Assembly (NCBI RefSeq): GCF_025685625.1
Contig: NZ_JAGSYI010000002.1
Location: forward strand, 496,001 to 560,000
DNA: 64,000 bases
Direction: 5' to 3'
DNA from: Acidicapsa acidisoli
Lineage (GTDB): Bacteria; Acidobacteriota; Terriglobia; Terriglobales; Acidobacteriaceae
Shown here: positions 8,807 to 54,628 of the stretch, one piece after another
Layout: each line of letters starts with the position of its first letter
Numbering within the stretch: position 1 is the first letter of the stretch
The notes under the pieces: generated by a model
What the model was told of the DNA's origin: nothing
Seen by the model: only the letters and a program-made list of their open reading frames with translations
The model's database searches: none
Position numbers and translations under genes: made by a program

Positions 8807-10936
8807 TCAACGAACGGTTCCCATGGGGCGGAGCCGCGTCTCAGCCGGAATGTCCGCAATTGCAACCACGGCCATCCGGGGCAGCCATGGCTCAATCCAA
8901 CGCCGGATGTAATATCGGGCTGGACTCGGTGCTAAGAGCACGGGAGTGGCCGTTGCGGGAGTGGTCGAGATAAGCTGCTTCAAAGAATCGACCAGGCGGC
9001 GAATCAGGGGCGACGTCGAACGAACCGGCCCGCTCAATTGCCGCTGTCCGGCTCCGGTCTCATGGGACAGGAAGTTCAGAATCTCCTCTTCGAGCGACTG
9101 CTCCATCAACAGAACCGGCAATTGACCGTCGCCATCCAGCAGAGGCTGAATCAACCGCCTTCCGAGCGCGTGTCGAGCCGCTTCCACCAAGGCAACGTGA
9201 TTCTTGTTGATCGCTGCGGTCTCAACCAGCGCCTCCAGGATCGATCCCATGTCGCGAATCGACACCCGCTCGCGCAGTAGCTGCTCCAGCACCCGCTGCA
9301 CCTCGCCGAGAGTCAGCAGCTTGGGGACAAGCTCTTCGAGCAGCTTTGGGTGTGTGTCGTTGAGCCCATCCAGAAGCCGCTTTGTTTCCGCCCGGCCGAG
9401 CAATTCATGCGCATGTTGTCGCAACATCTCACCCAGGTGCGTAGAAACAACTGTGACCGGATCGACAACGGAATAACCGGCTGCAATTGCCTGGTCCTCC
9501 AAAGTGGGAGCAATCCACAATGCAGGCACACCAAAGGCCGGCTCGCGTGTCTCTTTGCCGGGCAACGGACGCCGCACGCCTTCGCCCGAGACAGCGAGCA
9601 ACTGCGTTCCTTCGGTATGCCAACGCCCAATCTCGATTCCGCGCAGAGAGAACAGATACTCGCGAGGCCCCAGGCGCAAATTATCGGAGATATGCACCGG
9701 GGGCACTAGGAAACCAAGCTCTTGCGAAAGATGCCGCCGCAGAGTGCGCACACGGCCCAGAAGCTGGCCGCCCTGTTTCTCGTCGACCAGAGGAATCAGC
9801 TGAAAGCCGATCTCCAGGGTCAGCTCTTCAAGCTTCAGCAGCGCCGCCATCTCGTTTGCCGGAGCCACCGCGCCAGCCTTTGACTGAGCCGCAGTCGCCT
9901 CGCCGCCCGCTGAGGCTGTCTCTGCATCACCGGCAGCGGCACTCTTTCCAAGACTGCGCGCGGCAATTACAAGCGCAAGGGAAACCAGCAGGAATGCGAA
10001 CTTGGGTAGTCCCGGAATCAGGCATAGTGCCGCACTGACTCCCGCAGCCATGTACAACGTCGCTGGGCGATCAAAGAGCTGTGTGCGCAGTTCTCCGGAG
10101 AGTGTCACGGCTGAATTTGTTCGCGTGAGCGTGATGCCTCCGGCCACCGAAACCAGCAGGGACGGAATCATCGTCACCAGGCCATCGCCCACGGTCAGCA
10201 CCGTATAGGTGCGTACAGCCTCGGCAAGATCAACACCTTGCTGCAACGTGCCGATCAGCAGGCCCGCGATGATGTTGATGGCCGTGATAAGAATCGTAGC
10301 CATCGAATCCCGCTGGCTGAAGCGCGCGGCACCGTCCATCGCTCCGTAAAACTCGGCTTCCCGGGCGATTGCCTGGCGGCGACGACGCGCCTCATGTTCG
10401 TTGATCAGTCCGGCATTCAAGTCCGCGTCGATGGCCATCTGTTTGCCCGGCAGTGCATCGAGCGTGAATCGCGCGGTTACCTCAGCGGTGCGGACCGCGC
10501 CATGCGAAACCACGAGAAACTGAATCGCGATCAGCGCCAGAAAGAGCACAAAGCCAACCACATAGTTCCCGCCGACGACAAACTGACCAAAGGCCTCAAT
10601 AACATTTCCCGCCGCCGCCGTGCCTTCCGATCCGTGCAGCAGGATTCGCCTGCTTGAGGCGATGTTGAGGGAAAGCCGGAAGAGTGTCAGCAACAAAAGC
10701 AGTGTCGGAAAGACGCTCAATTCGACAGCACGGCGCACCTGTACTGCAGACAGGAACACGATCACCGACGCGGCAATCGAAAGCGCCAGCAGCATGTCCA
10801 GCACCCCGGACGGGAGCGGAACGAGCATGACAAACATCACGCTGATGGCACCGATTGGCAATAGGAACTCGCCCAACCGGCTCCACATCCCTGCTAGCCG
10901 TGTTCCCGGCGCGTTGACAACAACCGCTGTACTCAT
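8807..10936 (-). CDS. flhA: Flagellar export apparatus protein FlhA
   Basis: Largest membrane component of the flagellar type III export gate, 709 residues. The N-terminal half has about eight hydrophobic segments and the conserved FHIPEP-type cytosolic loop (ARFTLDALPGKQMAIDADLNAG, EHEARRRRQAI). The C-terminal cytosolic domain binds export chaperones (GIEIGRWHTEGTQLLAVSG, DPVTVVSTHLGE). It starts with an ATGA overlap with flhB, so translation is coupled. The fliA start lies just past its stop. Confidence 0.97.
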   Translation of the reverse strand: MSTAVVVNAPGTRLAGMWSRLGEFLLPIGAISVMFVMLVPLPSGVLDMLLALSIAASVIVFLSAVQVRRAVELSVFPTLLLLLTLFRLSLNIASSRRILLHGSEGTAAAGNVIEAFGQFVVGGNYVVGFVLFLALIAIQFLVVSHGAVRTAEVTARFTLDALPGKQMAIDADLNAGLINEHEARRRRQAIAREAEFYGAMDGAARFSQRDSMATILITAINIIAGLLIGTLQQGVDLAEAVRTYTVLTVGDGLVTMIPSLLVSVAGGITLTRTNSAVTLSGELRTQLFDRPATLYMAAGVSAALCLIPGLPKFAFLLVSLALVIAARSLGKSAAAGDAETASAGGEATAAQSKAGAVAPANEMAALLKLEELTLEIGFQLIPLVDEKQGGQLLGRVRTLRRHLSQELGFLVPPVHISDNLRLGPREYLFSLRGIEIGRWHTEGTQLLAVSGEGVRRPLPGKETREPAFGVPALWIAPTLEDQAIAAGYSVVDPVTVVSTHLGEMLRQHAHELLGRAETKRLLDGLNDTHPKLLEELVPKLLTLGEVQRVLEQLLRERVSIRDMGSILEALVETAAINKNHVALVEAARHALGRRLIQPLLDGDGQLPVLLMEQSLEEEILNFLSHETGAGQRQLSGPVRSTSPLIRRLVDSLKQLISTTPATATPVLLAPSPARYYIRRWIEPWLPRMAVVAIADIPAETRLRPMGTVR

Positions 10937-12210
10937 GACTCTCCTCGCTTAGGTGGTAATTGCGACGTCGATTCCGTCGCGGCCTTCGGTTCTCCGTGCG
11001 AACCGTGACCGTCTTCCTTACCGCGCCTGACACGGTCGCGCATACCAGGAATCCGCGCCAGCGCAACTGTGGAACTCGCCGCGGTGCCGGGAACAGATTC
11101 GGACACGCGCGACGATCCATCCCTTCGTGCGGCGGCTGCGCGCTCTCGGCGCTGCTGCGTCTCGCGCTCGACGCGCTGGCGATACAGGAACGCCAGAATC
11201 GAGGCCACAGCAGCATAGAGATCTACCGGAATCGATTCGCCCGGAGCCACAGAGCGATACAGCGACCGCGCCAAGGGCGGGTTCTCAATGATCGGAACTC
11301 CGGCCCAACGAGCCTGCTCTTTAATCTCCTCGGCAAGCAGATTCCTGCCCTTGGTCAGCACCTTCGGAGCTTCCATGGCCCCGAAATCGAACTCCAGCGC
11401 GACCGCATAGTGCGTCGGATTGGTGATCACCACCGTGGCTTTGGCCACATCGGCCTGCACGCGACGCCGCCTGGCCTGACGCTGCAGATTGCGAATTCGC
11501 CCGCGAATCTGCGGATTGCCCTGCGACTCCTTGTATTCATCCCGCATATCCTGCCGGCTCATCTTGAGACGCTGCTCGCGGCTGCGCCATTCCACCGCAT
11601 AATCGATCGCCGCCCACGCAAAGAGCAGCCAGGCCGCAGTCAACAGTAAGCCGTAGACATCGCCGCTCAACGCAATCATGCGCACGGAAGAAAACGGAGG
11701 CATGTCCCACTGCCGCGCCATCCTCTGCACGGCAAAGATCGCAAGCACCGCCGCAGGGATCATCGATTTGCCCAGCCGCGCCGCCGAGCGAAGCGAAAAG
11801 AGATTTTTCAGATTCGACAGAGGATTGATGCGGTCGAATTTCACGCCAAGCAGCTGGGGATGCACCTGAACTCCACCCGTCTGCATTACCCCGGCTGCAA
11901 GCGCAGCTGTGGCAACCCCGGCGCTGGCAAGGCCAACGGGCGCGAGTATCGTCATCGCCAGTCCCTCCAGCGAACGCATCGTCGCATCCGCCGTCTCCGG
12001 CTCCCAGGCGGACAACCTGCCATAACTGAGAAAGCCTCCTGCAGCCTGAACCCAGGCCGAGAGGAGGCGTGGGCCGATGAATCCAAGCAACATCACTCCC
12101 GCAAGCGTCCCGGCCGCCGCACTCAGCTCGCGGCTGTGCAGTACGTCGCCTTCCTTGCGCGCCTTTTCGCGCCGCTGCGGAGTAGCCTGTTCTGTGCGCT
12201 CGCCGGCCAT
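10933..12210 (-). CDS. flhB: Flagellar export switch protein FlhB
   Basis: Export-apparatus membrane protein of 425 residues that switches substrate from rod/hook to filament. It begins with the family ERTEQATPQRREKARKEGDV, has four membrane segments and then the cytosolic domain with the self-cleavage site N264-P-T-H267. GVPIIENPPLARSLY follows. The C-terminal 60-70 residues form an unusually long, Arg- and Glu-rich then Ser-rich tail, longer than in enteric FlhB. It starts two bases after the fliR stop and overlaps flhA by ATGA. Confidence 0.96.
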   Translation of the reverse strand: MAGERTEQATPQRREKARKEGDVLHSRELSAAAGTLAGVMLLGFIGPRLLSAWVQAAGGFLSYGRLSAWEPETADATMRSLEGLAMTILAPVGLASAGVATAALAAGVMQTGGVQVHPQLLGVKFDRINPLSNLKNLFSLRSAARLGKSMIPAAVLAIFAVQRMARQWDMPPFSSVRMIALSGDVYGLLLTAAWLLFAWAAIDYAVEWRSREQRLKMSRQDMRDEYKESQGNPQIRGRIRNLQRQARRRRVQADVAKATVVITNPTHYAVALEFDFGAMEAPKVLTKGRNLLAEEIKEQARWAGVPIIENPPLARSLYRSVAPGESIPVDLYAAVASILAFLYRQRVERETQQRRERAAAARRDGSSRVSESVPGTAASSTVALARIPGMRDRVRRGKEDGHGSHGEPKAATESTSQLPPKRGES

Positions 12211-12212
12211 CT

Positions 12213-13013
12213 CTATCCTCGTCCGCCATGAGCAATCAGCCTCTCGGCCACATCGAGCAGATTGCTGAAGCGGGCCTCAATGAAACGAGGCCAGAGCGCC
12301 AGCGAACCGATCAGCAAAACGAAGCCCGTAAGCGTCTTGGACGGAACCGTTAAAGCAACCACGGGAAGCTGCGGAGAAAGCTTGCCTAGCAGTGCCACCG
12401 AGATCTCAACAAGCACCGTCGCCGCCAGTACCGGAGCAGCCAGCTCCAGCGCAGCGAAAAACGATCCCGAAAGCATCGGCACCAGCGCCTTCGCCGAAAC
12501 AGAAATCGCAGCCAGCGGAAAACTGCCCAGCGGCACCGCGCGCACGCTGCGAACCATCGACGCCAGCAGCAGCCGATCCAACCCGGCCGTGATCAGCACC
12601 AGCGTCCCCATCATCTGAAACAGATCGCCCATCAGCGGCGTTTGAATCTCCGACGCCGGATCGAGCAGATTGACCAGCGAGAAGCTGAACTGCAATCCCA
12701 CAATCTGCCCCGCGATCAAGAGCATCTCGTTCAATAGGCTCAGCGTAAGGCCATAGATCACTCCTATCGCCGCCTCGCCAAGGATCCCCTCAAAGCTCAG
12801 CTCTACTCCAGCGCCATTCCCTTTGGCTGCGGCCACTGCAATCGTCGGCACAAGAAGAACGCACACTGCAAACGAGAACAGCGCTTTCGTCCGCGTCGGG
12901 ATAGCCCGCGAGACAAAGAACGGAGCGAGCGCGATCATCGAGCTCACCCTTACCAGCGCGAGAACGAGAGCCGCACCCATCGAATTCCAATCCGCTGAAT
13001 TCCATTCAGCCAC
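12213..13013 (-). CDS. fliR: Flagellar export protein FliR
   Basis: Integral membrane protein of 266 residues, part of the FliPQR export channel. It is nearly all hydrophobic segments, with family features LVRVSSMIALAPFFVSRAIPTRTK, FEGILGEAAIGVIYGL and PASEIQTPLMGDLFQMMGTL. The start is a GTG at 13013 with GAGGAGG upstream. It follows fliQ by about 40 bases and precedes flhB by 2. The order fliO-P-Q-R-flhB-flhA is the standard one. Confidence 0.95.
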   Translation of the reverse strand: MAEWNSADWNSMGAALVLALVRVSSMIALAPFFVSRAIPTRTKALFSFAVCVLLVPTIAVAAAKGNGAGVELSFEGILGEAAIGVIYGLTLSLLNEMLLIAGQIVGLQFSFSLVNLLDPASEIQTPLMGDLFQMMGTLVLITAGLDRLLLASMVRSVRAVPLGSFPLAAISVSAKALVPMLSGSFFAALELAAPVLAATVLVEISVALLGKLSPQLPVVALTVPSKTLTGFVLLIGSLALWPRFIEARFSNLLDVAERLIAHGGRG

Positions 13014-13054
13014 GCTCGCACCTCCTCGCTTTCGTTGTTACAAACAGCAATCGA

Positions 13055-13324
13055 TCAGTGAAGAAAACGATCGAAGTTGGTGAACAGAGACACGGTGTAC
13101 GCCGTCAGCCGATGCAGAAACCAAGGCATCCCAACGGTCAGAATCGTCACCACTGCAAAGAGCCGAGGCACCGCGGTCAGCGACTGCTCCTGCAACGAGG
13201 TGAGCGTCTGCAACAGGCTTAATAAGAAGCTCAGCAGCGCCGCCGCAAGCAGAATGGGCGCGGCCACAATCATCGCCTCCCGCAATAAATGCCGCATCAC
13301 TTCGGCGACCTGGTCCGGACTCAT
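13055..13324 (-). CDS. fliQ: Flagellar export protein FliQ
   Basis: Small membrane protein, 89 residues with two hydrophobic helices (MIVAAPILLAAALLSFLLS and LFAVVTILTVGMPWFLH) joined by the conserved LLQTLTSLQEQSL loop. It is part of the FliPQR export channel. ATG at 13324 has AGGGG about seven bases upstream; the ATG two codons earlier (13330) is too near that site. It lies 24 bases after fliP. Confidence 0.95.
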   Translation of the reverse strand: MSPDQVAEVMRHLLREAMIVAAPILLAAALLSFLLSLLQTLTSLQEQSLTAVPRLFAVVTILTVGMPWFLHRLTAYTVSLFTNFDRFLH

Positions 13325-13348
13325 CCCCATTCCCCTTTCGCATGCGCG

Positions 13349-14086
13349 TCAAAAGCTCTTCAACAGCGACCCGGTCACCAGATTCCAGCCGTCGACCATC
13401 ACAAACAGCAGGATCTTGAGCGGGGTTGAAACCACCACCGGCGGCAGTTGGAACATGCCAATCGAAGTCGTAATCGCAGCCGTCACCATGTCGATCAGCA
13501 GAAAAGGCAGATACAACACAGCACCGATCACAAACCCAGCCTTCAACTCGGAAAGCATGTAGGCCGGAATGACTGCGCGCAGCGGCAGATCCTCAGGCTT
13601 CGCAGGGCGCGGGATCTGCCCAGCCGCCGTAAATAGCGCCAGATCCTTTTCCCGTGCGTAACGCAGCATGAATGTCTTGATGGGCACAGAGCCACGGTCG
13701 ATTGCCTCCCAGCCAGTGATCTCACCATTGCGATAAGGCGTCACAGCCTGCTGCTCCACAGACACCAGGACTGGCTGCATCAGGAACCACGTCATCACAA
13801 GGCCAAGACCGAGAAGCGTGGGATTGGAGGGCGCGGTCTGCGTCCCAAGAGCCTGTCGCAGAAAGTGAAAGACCACCATAAGCCGCACCATCGGCGTAAC
13901 CGCCATGATCAGCGAAGGCAACAACGTAATCGCGGTCAGAACGAAGAGAATGGTCCAGGGAGTTGAGTCTCCGGGATGCAGCTTGGCGCCCAGATCCGGC
14001 AATACGGGCACAGCCGCACTCGGCACCGCGATCCAGAACGCCAGATGCGCAGGCACGCGGAACAAAAGCATCTGCACGCTTACCAT
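13349..14086 (-). CDS. fliP: Flagellar export protein FliP
   Basis: Core of the export channel, 245 residues, with an N-terminal signal-like segment and four membrane helices. Diagnostic stretches are LFVLTAITLLPSLIMAVTPMVR, VVFHFLRQALGTQTAPSNPTL, the loop RDxALF-like REKDLALFTAA, and the C-terminal DMVTAAITTSIGMFQLPPV. The start overlaps the fliO-like gene by 7 bases. Length and motif order are normal. Confidence 0.97.
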   Translation of the reverse strand: MVSVQMLLFRVPAHLAFWIAVPSAAVPVLPDLGAKLHPGDSTPWTILFVLTAITLLPSLIMAVTPMVRLMVVFHFLRQALGTQTAPSNPTLLGLGLVMTWFLMQPVLVSVEQQAVTPYRNGEITGWEAIDRGSVPIKTFMLRYAREKDLALFTAAGQIPRPAKPEDLPLRAVIPAYMLSELKAGFVIGAVLYLPFLLIDMVTAAITTSIGMFQLPPVVVSTPLKILLFVMVDGWNLVTGSLLKSF

Positions 14087-14547
14087 GAGACCCTGCTCAC
14101 TGGCCTTGCGGACCTCGCCGATTGAGCACTGAAACCCGGTCTTCGGGAGAGCTTTCGTGGAATGGCCAACGGTTTCATCTCTCCTGTAGCAGGGCCGCTT
14201 TCTAGAGCACTTGGGAAGGATTCGTCGCGGCGAGGCTCAGCACTGTTAAGAGAAAAGAAGGACGCGGCTCCATCCGCCGAGGACGCCACTAGCAGTCGTT
14301 GACCCTCGGCCTCAATTAGCGCAACTGTCTGGCGAGCACCCAACTCAATCCGCGCAATCAATGCCAATTGGGCCGGACGTGCCGCCGAAACTTGCCACCC
14401 GCGCACAAAACGAGCAATCAGGCCAGTTCCGAGCTTGTTTGCGAAGAAGTATCCAGGGCTGTCCAGGTGAGTTCGAAGATAGCCCAGATCACCTTCGAGA
14501 TCGGTCATCGCACGTTCTCTCGTATCGACTGCGAGTTTTTGTTTCAT
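14080..14547 (-). CDS. fliO: FliO-like flagellar assembly protein
   Basis: Protein of 155 residues in the fliO slot just before fliP, overlapping it by 7 bases. The central part LALIARIELGARQTVALIEAEG and QRLLVASSADG matches the short conserved core of FliO (basic residue, LG-x-[KR]-Q, then RLL). Unlike most FliO it shows no convincing membrane helix at the N-terminus, which is charged (DTRERAMTDLEGDLGYLR). FliO stabilises FliP during channel assembly. The call rests on position plus this short motif. Confidence 0.65.
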   Translation of the reverse strand: MKQKLAVDTRERAMTDLEGDLGYLRTHLDSPGYFFANKLGTGLIARFVRGWQVSAARPAQLALIARIELGARQTVALIEAEGQRLLVASSADGAASFFSLNSAEPRRDESFPSALESGPATGEMKPLAIPRKLSRRPGFSAQSARSARPVSRVSW

Positions 14548-46432: not shown

Positions 46433-48658
46433 GTGCAAAGGGCCTCAAACCAGTCCGCCTCAATGATTCGCTCCGTCACGGCAGCTCTCCTTTGCGCATT
46501 ACTCCCCGGCCAATTCGGACAATTTGCCTGTGCTCAAATCGGCACTCAAGTTGGCTCGGCCCTCGGGGCACGTCTGGGAACACAAACCGGCAAGAAGCCC
46601 GCTCCCGTCGCAACAATCGAGTCCTCGCCCGATGCGGCAAAGCCCACCACCGATCCACGCATCCTGCACCTTCTCAGCCGCTTCACCTTCGGCCCCACAA
46701 CAGAAGAGATCGCCTACATCCATGCCCTTGACGGCAAGCACGACGGGAAACATGATGTGGATCAATGGTTTGAACAGCAACTCCACCCCGACCGCATCCC
46801 CATCTCCACCGGTGACCGCTTTCTCGCTGACCGTCTCTCCGAATTCCCCGCGCTGCTACTGCCCGTCGACGAACTCCTCGCCCGTTTTCCCAGCGGCGCC
46901 ATGATCCGCCAGTCCGCCAACGGCAAACTGCCCATCCCCGACGACCCCTATCTTTACGCCATTTATCGCCGCCACATCGGCATGTTCGAAGAAAAACAAG
47001 CCCAAAAGGAACAATCCAAAGCCACGCCGGAATCCCCAAAACCCGCCCCGGCGAAGCAGGAACTGGCAGGCAAAATGAACATAACGGCCCCGCCAGCGGT
47101 CGAAACCAATCCCGCCGCAACCACCGAGCCAGCCAAGCCCACCCCAACCAAGCCTGAAACGGCCAGTGCAGCACGTCCCGCCTACGCCGACCTGCTGGTG
47201 AAGAACGTTCTCGCCCTGCCTCCGGCAAAACGAGTACAGCGCATTCTCTACATGCAGCCCGCCGAATACGAACAGTTCCACTCCGCCCTCAAAGGCCCGC
47301 AAAAATCCCAGCTAATCGCAGACCTGAATCCCGTAGAGCGCGAACTACTCTCCGACTTCGATAACCCGACCCGCACCATCGTCGAAGAACTCCAGGCCCA
47401 GCGCCTGTTACGCGATATCTACAGCTCTCACCAGTTAGAAGAAGTAATGACCACCTTCTGGCTCAACCACTTCAACGTCTATCTCCATAAGAACGAAGAA
47501 ACGCCCTACTATCTCGTAAATTACGAACGCGATGTTATCGCTCCGCGCGCCCTCGGTAACTTCGAAGACCTGCTCGTCGCCGTCGCCAAGAGCCCGGCCA
47601 TGCTTCTCTATCTCGATAACTCCAGCAGCACCGGCCCCGACTCGGTCGTCTCCGAAAAGCAAAAGGAACGCGCCGCGCTCGGCAAAGCAACCAAAGCCAC
47701 CCCTCCGGGCTTAAACGAAAACTACGCCCGCGAACTGATGGAGCTGCACACCCTCGGCGTCAACGGCGGCTACACTCAAGCCGATGTAACCGAAGTGGCC
47801 AAAGTCTTCACCGGCTGGACCGTCGACCGCCCGCAACTCGGCGGCGGCTTCAAATTCGACGAAACCCGCCACGAACCGGGCAAGAAGCTCGTCCTCGGCC
47901 ATGTCATCAAAGAGAGCGGCCAAAAGGAAGGCCTGCACCTGCTGCACCTCCTCGCCACGAACCCTGCAACCGCGCACTTCATTTCGCAGAAGCTGGCCGT
48001 CGCCTTCGTCAGCGACAACCCGCCGCCCGCGCTCGTCAACCGCATGGCCCAGACCTTCCTCGCCAAGAATGGCGAAATTGCAGCAGTCCTCCGCACCATG
48101 GTTCACTCGCCGGAGTTCTGGACTCCTGAGGCCTATCAGGCCAAGGTCAAAACGCCTCTCGAATACGTCGTCTCAGCCGCCCGCGCCAGCGGCGCCAACA
48201 TCACCAATGCCCAGCCCCTCGTGAATGCGCTCAACCAGATGGGAATGCCTCTGTACGCCTGCGTCCCACCCACTGGCTATTCAGACAAAGCCGACACCTG
48301 GGTCTCGACCGGCGAACTGGTCACCCGCATGAACTTCGCGCTCTCGCTCGCCACCAACCACTTCGGCGGCGTCCGGCCACAATGGGCCCCAGCCTCACTG
48401 TTGACGGGGTCTCCAACCGAAGCTGAGCAAAACCTGGAAGCCCAACTCATCCCAGCAGGAGTCAGCGAAAAAACCCGCGCCGCAGTCCTTAATCAGAACC
48501 AATCCGCTGCATCAGCTCAAGTATTTCCGCAACCAGTCACCGACCAATCCCTGAGCGGAAAGCCTCCAACTCCAGCCGGACTGGCCAATGCGATCCAACA
48601 GCAAAACGGCCAGATAGCGGGCCTTCTCCTCGGTTCCCCCGAGTTCCAACGCCGATAG
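46433..48658 (+). CDS. DUF1800 domain secreted protein
   Basis: Protein of 741 residues with an N-terminal signal peptide (VTAALLCALLPGQFGQFACA). It has the DUF1800 start LLSRFTFGPTTEEIAYIHAL and DQWFEQQLHPDRI, then VMTTFWLNHFNVYLHKNE, NENYARELMELHTLGVNGGY and TEVAKVFTGWTVD. A Pro/Ala/Lys/Thr-rich linker sits at about residues 190-255. The start is GTG 46433 with AGGAGG seven bases upstream. It forms an operon with the DUF1501 gene 16 bases on; such pairs are common and of unknown function, thought to act at the cell surface. Confidence 0.9.
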   Translation: MQRASNQSASMIRSVTAALLCALLPGQFGQFACAQIGTQVGSALGARLGTQTGKKPAPVATIESSPDAAKPTTDPRILHLLSRFTFGPTTEEIAYIHALDGKHDGKHDVDQWFEQQLHPDRIPISTGDRFLADRLSEFPALLLPVDELLARFPSGAMIRQSANGKLPIPDDPYLYAIYRRHIGMFEEKQAQKEQSKATPESPKPAPAKQELAGKMNITAPPAVETNPAATTEPAKPTPTKPETASAARPAYADLLVKNVLALPPAKRVQRILYMQPAEYEQFHSALKGPQKSQLIADLNPVERELLSDFDNPTRTIVEELQAQRLLRDIYSSHQLEEVMTTFWLNHFNVYLHKNEETPYYLVNYERDVIAPRALGNFEDLLVAVAKSPAMLLYLDNSSSTGPDSVVSEKQKERAALGKATKATPPGLNENYARELMELHTLGVNGGYTQADVTEVAKVFTGWTVDRPQLGGGFKFDETRHEPGKKLVLGHVIKESGQKEGLHLLHLLATNPATAHFISQKLAVAFVSDNPPPALVNRMAQTFLAKNGEIAAVLRTMVHSPEFWTPEAYQAKVKTPLEYVVSAARASGANITNAQPLVNALNQMGMPLYACVPPTGYSDKADTWVSTGELVTRMNFALSLATNHFGGVRPQWAPASLLTGSPTEAEQNLEAQLIPAGVSEKTRAAVLNQNQSAASAQVFPQPVTDQSLSGKPPTPAGLANAIQQQNGQIAGLLLGSPEFQRR

Positions 48659-48674
48659 ATTCAGGAGTCTCCGC

Positions 48675-49925
48675 ATGACCAGCACACGACGCATCTTCCT
48701 TCGCAACGGCGCACTCGCCCTCGCCGGAACCACCGCGCTTCCCGCATTCCTGACCCGCGCAGTGATGGCCGCGACGACTACGGCAACTGCGCAAGGCAAG
48801 AAGCTCGTCGTTATCTTCCAGCGCGGAGCCGCAGACGGCCTCAACATCGTCGTTCCCTGGCGCGAACCGAACTACTACGCAATGCGCCCCACCATCGCCA
48901 TCCCGCAAAATCAGGTCCTCGACCTCGACGGATTCTTCGGTCTGCACCCGGCCATGGCATCGCTCCAGCCGCTCTACCGTCAGGGGCATCTGGCCATCAT
49001 CCACGCCACCGGCTCACCCGACGGCACCCGCTCCCACTTCGACGCCCAGGACTTCATGGAATCCGGCACACCCGGCACCAAGAGCACGCGGGACGGCTGG
49101 CTCAACCGCGCCCTGCAAGCCGAAGACCTCCGCCGTCGTCAGGAACACACCGCATTTCGCGCGGTAGCTCTAGGCTCCGACGTCCCCCGCACCCTCGAGG
49201 GCAAAATCCCCGTCCTGGCCATCAGCAACGTGCAGGACTTCGCCGTCGGCGGGCGCGGTCCAAAGCCTGCGCCAACAGCAACGGCATTCGAAGCCATGTA
49301 CGACCAATCGAGCGATTCCCTGCTCCACAACGCTGGAGACAATTCCTTCGAAGCCATCAAGATGCTCCGCGCCACCGACCCCGCGCACTACACCCCCTCG
49401 CCCGACGCCAACTACCCCGACAGCCCCTTCGCCAAGAACATGAAGCAGATCGCCCAGCTTCTCAAAGCCAACCTCGGCCTCGAAGCCGCCTTCACCGATA
49501 TAGGCGGCTGGGACACCCATCAGAACCAGGGCAGCACCGACGGCCAACTCGCCAACCGCCTCCGCGACTTCTCCGACTCGATAGCCGCCTTCTGGCGCGA
49601 TATGGGCCCTGACGCCGAAAGCATCACCCTCGTCACCATGTCCGAATTCGGGCGCACCGCCCACCAGAACGGCACCGGCGGCACTGACCACGGCCACGCG
49701 AACGCCATGTTCGTCTTAGGAGGCAACGTGAGAGGCGGCAAAGTCTACGGCAAATGGCCCGGCCTCGCCGATCACCAGCTCAACGAAGGCCGCGACCTCG
49801 CCATCACCACCGACTACCGGCAGGTCCTGGGCGAAGTAGTCAGCAAGACAATTGGCGCCAACAACCTGGAAGTAACCTTCCCCGGCGCAAAGCTAAACCC
49901 CAAACAATTCCTGGGATTGGTATAG
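48675..49925 (+). CDS. DUF1501 domain Tat-exported protein
   Basis: Protein of 416 residues with a twin-arginine leader (TRRIFLRNGALALAGTTALP). The body is of the DUF1501/alkaline-phosphatase-like fold: KKLVVIFQRGAADGLNIVVP, FGLHPAMASLQPLYRQGHLA, DIGGWDTHQNQGSTDGQL, TLVTMSEFGRTAHQNGTGGTDHGHAN. The many Asp and His residues suggest a metal site. Partner of the DUF1800 protein just upstream. AGGAG precedes the ATG. Substrate unknown. Confidence 0.92.
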   Translation: MTSTRRIFLRNGALALAGTTALPAFLTRAVMAATTTATAQGKKLVVIFQRGAADGLNIVVPWREPNYYAMRPTIAIPQNQVLDLDGFFGLHPAMASLQPLYRQGHLAIIHATGSPDGTRSHFDAQDFMESGTPGTKSTRDGWLNRALQAEDLRRRQEHTAFRAVALGSDVPRTLEGKIPVLAISNVQDFAVGGRGPKPAPTATAFEAMYDQSSDSLLHNAGDNSFEAIKMLRATDPAHYTPSPDANYPDSPFAKNMKQIAQLLKANLGLEAAFTDIGGWDTHQNQGSTDGQLANRLRDFSDSIAAFWRDMGPDAESITLVTMSEFGRTAHQNGTGGTDHGHANAMFVLGGNVRGGKVYGKWPGLADHQLNEGRDLAITTDYRQVLGEVVSKTIGANNLEVTFPGAKLNPKQFLGLV

Positions 49926-51632: not shown

Positions 51633-51834
51633 CGCTTCATCTCCTCAATAATCGATCTGGCTGACGCAAACACCCGCCAAACCGTCCTCCGACAGTGTAC
51701 CCGCTCCAACTCCGGCAACGCGCCAAACCCCTGAGTTTTGAAACGTTCGGCCTCGACCGTTCACTAACTGGTGATGGAAAGGCCCCGCCTGGAGTGTTCA
51801 ACGGAGAGCCAGCCATATCCACGAGGAGAACTCC

Positions 51835-54042
51835 ATGACAGAATTCACAAATCCCTTTGAAAGACCCTTCGAAATCGAGCGAAGGCATTTCATCCCGCGG
51901 CTGCTCACCAACCCGAACTACTTCGGAAACCTGCCTGACAGCCCGTACAAACCCGTCAAGGAAATCATCGCCAACACCTCCTACGAGGAACTGAAGTGCA
52001 TTGGCTTCAACCCTCAGCTCAGCCGCATCGAGGGGGTTGTCTGGATCAAGCAATCCACCGGATACAACGGCGGCCTCTGCACCAACGGCTCGCTGGAATA
52101 CGTCAGCTTTTATCTGTCCTACGACAACGGCGTCACCTGGCTCTTCCAGGGAACGACGAATTTCCAGGTCTTCGACGTCGATATCCATCATCCGCTCGAA
52201 TACGCAGTCGATCTCGCCATCTCACCCGAACGAAAACTTTGCCGCGAGGCCAACCTGCCTCTGCTGCGCGGAGTTCTCTCCTGGGCCACGCCGCCCACCA
52301 GTCCAACCATTCCGCCCGTGTGGGGCAACATCCTCGAAACCCGCATCCAGATCGCGCCCTATCTCCGAAAAATTCCGATTCACGATTTCTTCCAGACCGT
52401 CGATGTCAAACTGCCGAGCGATGTCGCCGAACTCATCTCCACCAGCGCCACCATCGACCTCGCTGAACCCAAGGAACTCTCTCCGGCCGAATTGCAAAAA
52501 CTATACGGCGATACCTCGGTTCCCGCTCATCGCTATCTGCACAAAACCGTCCAGAAAGCGCTGAATTTCCCGGCTGGACTGACAAAATCGACCAGCCTCT
52601 TCAGCGGCCTGGACATCGACATCGCCGCCATCATCGCAGAGCTGGAAAACCCCAACGGCAGCACCGAATTCGAGCAGCTCGAATGCATCGGCCTGGACGA
52701 AGGCGGAATCGTAGACGCCCTCGTTGGAACCCTCCAGATCAAGCTTCCCATCGGCTACTCCGGCGGCCTGTGCACCGCTGGCAGCACCGAGTATGTTGCC
52801 TTCTGGATCGACTGGGGCAGCGGCTGGGAGTGGGCGGGAACGCCGTCCGTGAGAGTCTTCGACATAGCCTCAATTCCCAGCGAAGGTCTGAGCTACGCCG
52901 TCTATTGGCCGGTCGACCTCAACTCCCATCGCAAACCATGCACCGAAGGACCGGTAACCGCGAAAGTCCGGGCCATCCTCTCCTGGGATATCGCTCCGCC
53001 CGCAACCGATCCGGACTACGTTCCAGTCTGGGGCAATCGCCTCCAAACGCACATCCTCGTCGACCCAGGCGTACCGGTCCAGACCGGTAACTACACGCCG
53101 TTCCTGCAATCGATCTGCGACGTCGCCGTCTGCGATATCGACCAGACAACAGGCTGGGCGCCCGGCGACAGTCCCTTCGGAGCCTCAATCTCCATCTTCG
53201 GTTACATCCCGGGCGCGCCAACGCTGGATGTCATCCTCGCCGGCAATGCACCGCTCTATCAGATCACCGTGCAGCAATGGGATACCGCAACCAACACCGG
53301 CATCGGCAGCCCGCAAATACTCACCGATCCGTTCTCCGTCACTGTCACTCAGCAAATTGGCGGCGGAGCCGTAACCAGCTTCCCTCTTACGCAGAGCGCC
53401 CCCGGAGGCTTCTTCACCTACCAGAATGCGACACCCGGCCCAGCAGGCTGGCGAAGCATTTCTCCCGACGGGCTCCTGGCCATCTGGAACTCCGCAGCAT
53501 CAACCGGCACCTGGATGATCTCCATGGTAGTAACCGACCCCGTATCCCATGCGACATTCCTCGGAGGTTCGATCGACTGCTCGAATGGAACAACGCGGCA
53601 AGGTGTAGTGATCGATCTGGATCAGCTCGCCCCAGTCACCGATCTCGAGATCACCGGCTACATTCCAGCCGGAAGCTCCGGTCCGTGCCAGTCGGCTGTC
53701 AATTGCCAGACCTTCACCGTGGGCGACACAATCTGTGGCACCTACAGCGTCAGCGACGAGCATCTCGGCAGCTTCAGCCTGAGCGAGGAGCCGTTCCCCA
53801 ACCCAGCCGCCTTCACCATCGACGGCAACCCGGTGGACGGGCTCTCGTATCCCAATCCACTGCTTCCGCTCTCCGGAACAAAATCCGGCGTGTGGACCTT
53901 CGACACCACCGGCCTACCAGCCTGCGGTTACACGATCCAGCTTCTCTCCGGAGACAGGACGATCGTTGACTGCGTAACCAACTGGGAAAACAACTCCGAG
54001 TTCAAAGGCTTCTGCCTGAAAGAACCCGGAGCGGCCAGCTAA
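51835..54042 (+). CDS. Unknown 735-residue protein with two repeated beta-type domains
   Basis: I do not recognise a named family. No signal peptide. Residues 49-174 and 279-410 are two copies of one domain sharing E-x-L-x-CIG, GYxGGLCTxGSxEYVxF, a later Cys, an R-x-x-LSW motif and PVWGNxLxTxI. A 100-residue helical linker joins them. Residues 425-735 look like two further beta-sandwich units (GASISIFGYIPGAPTLDVIL; DLEITGYIPAGSSGPCQSAV) with several Cys. GAGGAG precedes ATG 51835. The next two small genes follow after 3 and 4 bases, so the three are one operon. A structural or surface role is only a guess. Confidence 0.8.
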   Translation: MTEFTNPFERPFEIERRHFIPRLLTNPNYFGNLPDSPYKPVKEIIANTSYEELKCIGFNPQLSRIEGVVWIKQSTGYNGGLCTNGSLEYVSFYLSYDNGVTWLFQGTTNFQVFDVDIHHPLEYAVDLAISPERKLCREANLPLLRGVLSWATPPTSPTIPPVWGNILETRIQIAPYLRKIPIHDFFQTVDVKLPSDVAELISTSATIDLAEPKELSPAELQKLYGDTSVPAHRYLHKTVQKALNFPAGLTKSTSLFSGLDIDIAAIIAELENPNGSTEFEQLECIGLDEGGIVDALVGTLQIKLPIGYSGGLCTAGSTEYVAFWIDWGSGWEWAGTPSVRVFDIASIPSEGLSYAVYWPVDLNSHRKPCTEGPVTAKVRAILSWDIAPPATDPDYVPVWGNRLQTHILVDPGVPVQTGNYTPFLQSICDVAVCDIDQTTGWAPGDSPFGASISIFGYIPGAPTLDVILAGNAPLYQITVQQWDTATNTGIGSPQILTDPFSVTVTQQIGGGAVTSFPLTQSAPGGFFTYQNATPGPAGWRSISPDGLLAIWNSAASTGTWMISMVVTDPVSHATFLGGSIDCSNGTTRQGVVIDLDQLAPVTDLEITGYIPAGSSGPCQSAVNCQTFTVGDTICGTYSVSDEHLGSFSLSEEPFPNPAAFTIDGNPVDGLSYPNPLLPLSGTKSGVWTFDTTGLPACGYTIQLLSGDRTIVDCVTNWENNSEFKGFCLKEPGAAS

Positions 54043-54045
54043 CCA

Positions 54046-54378
54046 ATGAACGACCTGTATCGCCTGCTGCTCGGCGTTCTATGCGTCTGGCGAATCACGC
54101 ATCTCTTCCAGGCCGAAGATGGCCCATGGGACGTGATCGTCCGCATCCGCCAAGCGGCAGGCGACGGGATTGCCGGTCAACTGCTCGATTGCTTCTATTG
54201 CCTGAGCCTGTGGATTTCCATCCCGCTGGCCTGGGCAATAGGGCATTCGATCCAGGAAAAAATCCTGATGGGTCTGGCCTTCTCAGGTGGAGCAATCCTG
54301 CTGGAACGCTCTACCTCAAAGGCCATCCCGGACGCTCCAATCATCCAGGCGTTGTTTGAAGAAGACAAGGAGAAATAA
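54046..54378 (+). CDS. DUF1360-like small membrane protein
   Basis: Protein of 110 residues with two hydrophobic parts (LYRLLLGVLCVWRITHLF; CLSLWISIPLAWAIGH). VWRITHLFQAEDGPWDVIVRIR and LLDCFYCLSLWIS with a C-x2-C match the DUF1360 pattern. Function unknown. It starts three bases after the 735-residue gene and is followed after four bases by the CCGQ gene. Confidence 0.75.
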   Translation: MNDLYRLLLGVLCVWRITHLFQAEDGPWDVIVRIRQAAGDGIAGQLLDCFYCLSLWISIPLAWAIGHSIQEKILMGLAFSGGAILLERSTSKAIPDAPIIQALFEEDKEK

Positions 54379-54382
54379 CCAT

Positions 54383-54628
54383 ATGACTTGCTGCGGTCAA
54401 GGAAGAGGCAAAGTCGCCATGAACGGAAAACTCACCCGTCCGGCGCAACGCCCAACACCCGTTTCGAGCGCCGTTCTGTACCAGTACACGGGAACCACAG
54501 GAATGACGGTCACGGGGCCAATCAGCGGCGCAAGATACCGCTTCGATCAACCTGGCGCAAAGGTCCAGATCGATCGACGCGACGTCTCTTCGCTCACCGG
54601 TCTGCCCAATCTCAGCCGCCTGACCTGA
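54383..54628 (+). CDS. Small CCGQ-type protein, third gene of the unknown cassette
   Basis: Protein of 81 residues starting MTCCGQGRGK. The centre SSAVLYQYTGTTGMTVTGPI followed by SGARYRFDQPGAKVQID looks like a compact beta domain, and the end is DVSSLTGLPNLSRL. The Cys-Cys near the N-terminus may bind metal or anchor the protein. AAGGAG lies about 10 bases before ATG 54383. It ends 9 bases from the end of the convergent histidine kinase gene. Too short for a firm family call, but the tight spacing makes it a real gene. Confidence 0.7.
   Translation: MTCCGQGRGKVAMNGKLTRPAQRPTPVSSAVLYQYTGTTGMTVTGPISGARYRFDQPGAKVQIDRRDVSSLTGLPNLSRLT

Follow-up and report, generated by a model that had tools for sequence, protein, structure and literature searches.

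DUF1360 (Pfam PF07098; phrog_781) is a family that we found in the open literature only as a list entry in one paper, and its description includes, as far as we found, no partnership with a small cysteine-cluster protein and a large protein. The CshA-type fibrillar adhesins and the GEVED stalk domain serve here as a reference (PMC10952558); further points of comparison are YqbF, a small protein of the phage head cluster in the B. subtilis skin element, and operons encoding an ECF sigma factor, an anti-sigma factor and a TPR-CHAT protein. Literature searches on YjcA and YqbF, and on the CHAT/ECF operon, returned nothing useful. The three-gene cassette reported here includes a 110-residue protein that belongs to DUF1360 by the Pfam cut-off and also matches the phage family, and its smallest protein has a core that superposes on YqbF at a level within the chance range. 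Its largest protein and that protein's counterparts elsewhere are, like the CshA-type adhesins, large beta proteins of mosaic build whose domains have been shuffled, and some relatives give weak GEVED matches (two of seven family members, best E 0.017). However, GEVED stays below threshold in all those tested (19.7 bits against 24.4 in the L023 protein), the duplicated module of the cassette's own protein gives no match to PF20009, and that protein lacks both a wall anchor and the N-terminal signal peptide that is a criterion for a secreted fibrillar adhesin. As far as the tools and open literature searched show, no known system has this composition.

The window, the whole 64,000-nucleotide stretch of Acidicapsa acidisoli DNA that was analysed, carries the cassette at positions 51835-54628 as an isolated plus-strand unit between two minus-strand genes, a 6-phosphofructokinase-like gene upstream and a histidine kinase gene downstream, the latter ending 10 bases past the cassette. 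The large protein gene (51835..54042, +; 735 aa, 15 Cys) is preceded at ribosome-site spacing by a Shine-Dalgarno-like GAGGAG (51823..51828, +), and is followed by the gene for the DUF1360 membrane protein (54046..54378, +; 110 aa) and by that for the 81-residue CCGQ protein (54383..54628, +), the window's member of what we call the CCG family. CCGQ starts at an ATG inside a longer, mechanically called ORF, with a Shine-Dalgarno-like AAGGAG at 54367..54372 (+), again at ribosome-site spacing. The gaps of 3 and 4 bases confirm the tight packing described in an earlier sequence-only reading, and all three ORFs are conserved in other genomes and are therefore real genes. A chance operon is ruled out by the recurrence of the same gene order in three phyla, which also supports the earlier suggestion that the genes act as a set. 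A promoter and terminator scan of the cassette gave chance-level matches only, and the downstream histidine kinase has no orthologue conserved across the genus. A DUF1800-DUF1501 gene pair lies near the cassette in two phyla (46433-49925 in the window, L098:2745-6050; Pfam-confirmed), probably by coincidence (2/17 loci).

The DUF1360 assignment, which the sequence-only reading had proposed, is borne out by a Pfam match above the gathering threshold (24.7 bits against 21, E 2.3e-5) and by phrog_781 (E 5.6e-7). We searched a DUF1360 profile against 297 genomes of the host's own phylum, 395 of the phylum to which the Ignavibacteria genome belongs and 380 of that to which the Chloroflexi genome belongs. 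It was present in six, eight and two genomes respectively and a CCG gene was found in every one of these, adjoining DUF1360 in all six of the first group; the second group gave strong matches (1e-31 or better), which a separate profile confirmed. With the addition of L014 there are 17 bacterial DUF1360 loci; CCG directly adjoins DUF1360 in 16, and in L104 the two are 3.6 kb apart on one strand. The loci L098-L104, L127 and L128 did not contribute to the CCG profile and so provide an independent test of the pairing, which held in 9/9. Within the own-phylum draw, CCG occurred in seven genomes, six with DUF1360 and one without (Fisher p 8e-12). No DUF1360 was found in plasmids.

Viral contigs yielded 14 further DUF1360 loci, of which L047 starts too near its contig end and was left out of the adjacency count; a CCG-type domain is adjacent in 13/13 of the rest. 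In L044 and L045 the CCG gene overlaps the end of DUF1360, while in the other 11 a cysteine cluster followed by a small beta domain lies directly upstream, either free-standing or forming the C-terminal end of an ORF that encodes a glycosyltransferase (Pfam bears out the fusion for L046 and L048, the remaining ones being assigned by reading). Aligned with hhalign, the profile of the phage domain matches that of the bacterial CCG proteins at 97.6% (columns 1-80 against 1-84), compared with no more than 0.6% for unrelated controls, and by this profile comparison CCGQ qualifies as a homologue of the phage domain that adjoins DUF1360. Viral scans with CCG queries returned only contigs already known. 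DUF1360 and CCG are thus inseparable, the former never having been seen without the latter at any testable bacterial or viral locus. The viral contig of L044 also holds a terminase ORF with an intein-like-looking insert (L044:9363-12032).

The AlphaFold2 (AF2) model of CCGQ comprises an N-terminal cysteine cluster, a disordered linker and a confidently predicted b-b-b-b-a-b domain (residues 30-79/80, 54470..54619, +; pLDDT about 90), in agreement with the compact beta core read earlier from the sequence. Neither CCGQ nor the large protein has a family in Pfam, NCBIfam or PADLOC or a convincing one in PHROGs, such that profile searches provide a curated family for DUF1360 and for neither of its neighbours. 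The large protein also has no PDB match by sequence, and its best PHROG match (E 0.17) is to a family of unknown function and not to a structural one; the searches matched it to no enzyme family and no phage tail protein family, either of which would have spoken against the earlier reading.

The duplication within the large protein was confirmed: a cysteine-bearing beta module at about residues 46/48-175 (51976..52359, +) recurs at about residues 275-411 (52657..53067, +) with 39% identity (residues 46-175 against 275-411, E 5e-27, z about 39 against shuffles). The lack of a signal peptide was likewise upheld, by a hydropathy scan that shows no N-terminal hydrophobic stretch. As to the Ig-like C-terminal units suggested earlier, the AF2 model is indeed strand-rich, but it was built from four sequences and its mean pLDDT of 46 is very low and too poor for a fold search. 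Relatives of the protein occur in four genomes near the host, in two further genomes of its phylum and in records whose titles name Methanosarcinaceae, Chloroflexi and Ignavibacteria, a sparse and patchy distribution. The large gene is followed by DUF1360 and CCG in the window, L014, L022 and L010, by CCG alone in L013 and by neither in L008, L009, L011, L012 and L023. The expectation that the three genes stay together across genomes therefore holds for DUF1360 and CCGQ, but not for the large gene, whose family occurs without the pair in 5/10 loci and can thus act alone.

Some of these relatives have features of their own. The archaeal copy (L008:1820-4384) has an extra N-terminal helix-hairpin-helix domain, and the glycosyltransferase-CCG protein of phage locus L046 also ends in such a domain. 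The Chloroflexi copy (L009:10022-11819) is interrupted and lacks its N-terminus, and is probably a pseudogene or an assembly error. The L023 protein has a signal peptide by hydropathy, a single-module relative with a signal peptide exists in L024, and patatin-like and PLD genes lie beside the solo gene of L023 (L023:962-6988). A Trypsin-PLD protein adjoins one cassette (L043:4339-6606); PADLOC matches of the PLD neighbours to DrmC reflect merely generic PLD similarity.

What precedes the pair is not constant. A large protein is encoded directly upstream in 14/17 bacterial loci, and these proteins belong to six or more groups (the window's family in four loci, L042/L102, L040/L103, L098/L099, L041/L127, L043, L128), several of which are alike only in the C-terminal region; those of L040/L103 have transthyretin and carboxypeptidase-regulatory domains. 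In L100 and L101 the pair stands with a different protein of 435 aa, and in L104 no such protein is adjacent. A family of 435-453 aa with the motif TTLLPGEKVR is found beside the pair in L099:11248-12609, L100:7799-9106 and L101:7828-9141, and a Pfam search of one member gave no match. The pair is thus constant and the large gene exchangeable.

Some of the large proteins nonetheless have something in common at their C-terminal end. In the window this region spans about residues 427-735 (53113..54039, +), and by hhalign the window family's C-terminal half recurs, with differing N-termini, in L042/L102 (86%), in L025, whose large protein stands without the pair (96%), and weakly in L040/L103 (39%), while the last 26 residues of the L041 protein match the family's C-terminus at 81%. 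A short signature, CGYTIQL...DRTIVDC...GFCL (residues 697-728, 53923..54018, +), was searched in full-length sequences with leave-one-group-out profiles. L041, L127, L043, L128, L025 and 6/9 members of the window's family outscored every shuffled decoy, and in all of these the best match fell at the C-terminus or close to it; the copy in the window itself is weak, 20/900 decoys reaching its score. The short motif was not detected in L042/L102 or L040/L103, and L098/L099 were negative by both motif and hhalign. These profile comparisons suggest a picture of large proteins with variable N-terminal parts and a partly shared C-terminal end.

We tentatively favour, at somewhat less than even probability, the reading that DUF1360 and CCG are a phage-derived membrane anchor and adaptor, repurposed in bacteria to hold or display adhesin-like cargo that lacks a signal peptide. 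DUF1360 would be located in the inner membrane, a topology predicted from hydropathy peaks that are no more than moderate; CCG would dock on it, perhaps via its own cysteine cluster and the invariant C-x-x-C of DUF1360; and the pair would then serve to hold the large protein at the membrane, to assemble it there or to display it, with its C-terminal region as the probable recognition site. The adaptor domain, often fused to a glycosyltransferase in phages, would be the connecting part that stays the same and the third protein a cargo that can be replaced, with descent presumably from phage to bacterium. This reading is drawn because the membrane-type partner is never seen without the small cysteine/beta protein, because the small domain is fused to an enzyme in phages and free-standing beside a large protein in bacteria, and because the large proteins vary while the pair persists. 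Counted against it are the large-protein groups in which no C-terminal signature was detected, the solo loci of the window's large family, the three loci without the usual large protein (L100, L101, L104), and the absence of the large protein from both the phage records and the viral contigs searched. Of the particle, the envelope structure and the effector proposed in the sequence-only reading, display at the envelope or membrane fits best. A bolder version, to which we give a low probability, is that the cassette is an undescribed cargo-display device, in which the phage-born pair recognises a shared C-terminal domain and places signal-less large proteins on or through the membrane, the cargo being swapped across lineages and phyla by horizontal transfer. 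Most of the probability that remains is shared among four other explanations.

It is improbable, though foremost among these four, that the cassette is what remains of a domesticated phage morphogenesis module and still assembles a particle, or an appendage resembling a tail, with the large protein as its fibre. The earlier idea of a particle gains an indirect basis from the pair's place in phage morphogenesis clusters: viral DUF1360 has such genes as neighbours (a tape measure gene in L047, a terminase gene in L044), and a DUF1360-like gene of Microbacterium phage A3Wally is flanked by terminase and portal. The CCG core also gives weak matches, mostly to small phage proteins, in a viral fold library. 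It superposes on YqbF over 45 residues (Z 5.1, rmsd 1.7), where a Z of 5 is in the chance range for so small a fold, and a CCG-homologous domain lies in structural clusters at the phage DUF1360 loci. A PDB fold search with CCG returned many small GINS-like and ribosomal domains at Z 3-5, which were taken as background. However, no capsid, portal, terminase or tail gene was recognised in the bacterial cassette loci read, and the large protein has neither a PHROG family nor a relative in 50,697 phage records (tblastn) or in the viral contigs searched.

The conserved cysteines raise the further possibility, also improbable, of a thiol/disulfide or metal relay in which DUF1360, with its C-x-x-C in the membrane, and CCG, with its cysteine pair, would mature the cysteine-containing large proteins. 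Across 29 aligned DUF1360 sequences, the positions that never vary are an Arg, E-D-G-P (54115..54126, +; 29/29) and C-x-x-C (54190..54201, +) followed by x-S-x-W, of which both Cys and the Ser are found in 29/29 and the Trp in 28/29; the CCG N-terminus carries its cysteine cluster in bacteria and phages alike; and the large proteins have 7-39 Cys each. Against such a role, the phage partner is a glycosyltransferase, and DUF1360 has no PDB match by sequence and no similarity that we could see to a known oxidoreductase.

We consider it similarly doubtful that the cassette is a satellite of an ECF-sigma-controlled, caspase-like (TPR-CHAT) stress or conflict system, with the large protein as target or sensor and CCG as a regulator heading the sigma operon. 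In L013, L014 and L022 the genes for an ECF sigma factor, a zf-HC2 anti-sigma factor and a TPR-CHAT protein lie directly downstream of a complete or partial cassette (the large gene and CCG in all three, DUF1360 in two). The CCG genes here (L014:11172-11405, L013:7827-8042, L022:11130-11345) and in L105 (L105:4471-4818) are of a second subtype, ending about LxTRLFRxxR, which directly precedes or overlaps the sigma gene, the overlap being seen in L105, where neither DUF1360 nor a large protein is present. The association is genuine but confined to a few loci: 37/150 genomes of the family have a CHAT orthologue, CCG was found upstream in only one (L105) of 20 CHAT loci inspected and DUF1360 or a large gene in none (0/20), and no trio locus outside the host's own family has the operon. 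In the window's genome it lies on contig C4 (C4:283824) and the cassette on C2. CHAT linkage as a general function is ruled out, since the operon is common without the cassette and unlinked to it in this genome. The C4 operon itself (L030, C4:272000-290000, at 9069-14245) is a conserved set of genes for the ECF sigma factor, the zf-HC2 anti-sigma factor, a 292-aa protein that belongs to no known family, and TPR-CHAT; in genomes of the family the sigma, anti-sigma and CHAT genes are usually accompanied by one more, of about 300 aa.

Least probable of all is a holin-like release cassette in which DUF1360 lets the signal-less large protein leave the cell, since despite the suggestive adjacency of a small hydrophobic phage protein to a signal-less large one, the phage pair sits in a structural cluster with no recognised lysin beside it and DUF1360 matches no holin family in Pfam or PHROGs.

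Whichever of these explanations applies, two uncharacterised families, one of which (CCG) has no database model, prove to be a pair that spans phages and at least three bacterial phyla. The pairing offers a concrete starting point for work on DUF1360, and an interaction between DUF1360 and CCG is its testable prediction. If it is true, as the anchor and adaptor reading proposes, that the pair handles interchangeable cargo without signal peptides, this would be a new route by which proteins are placed in the envelope.
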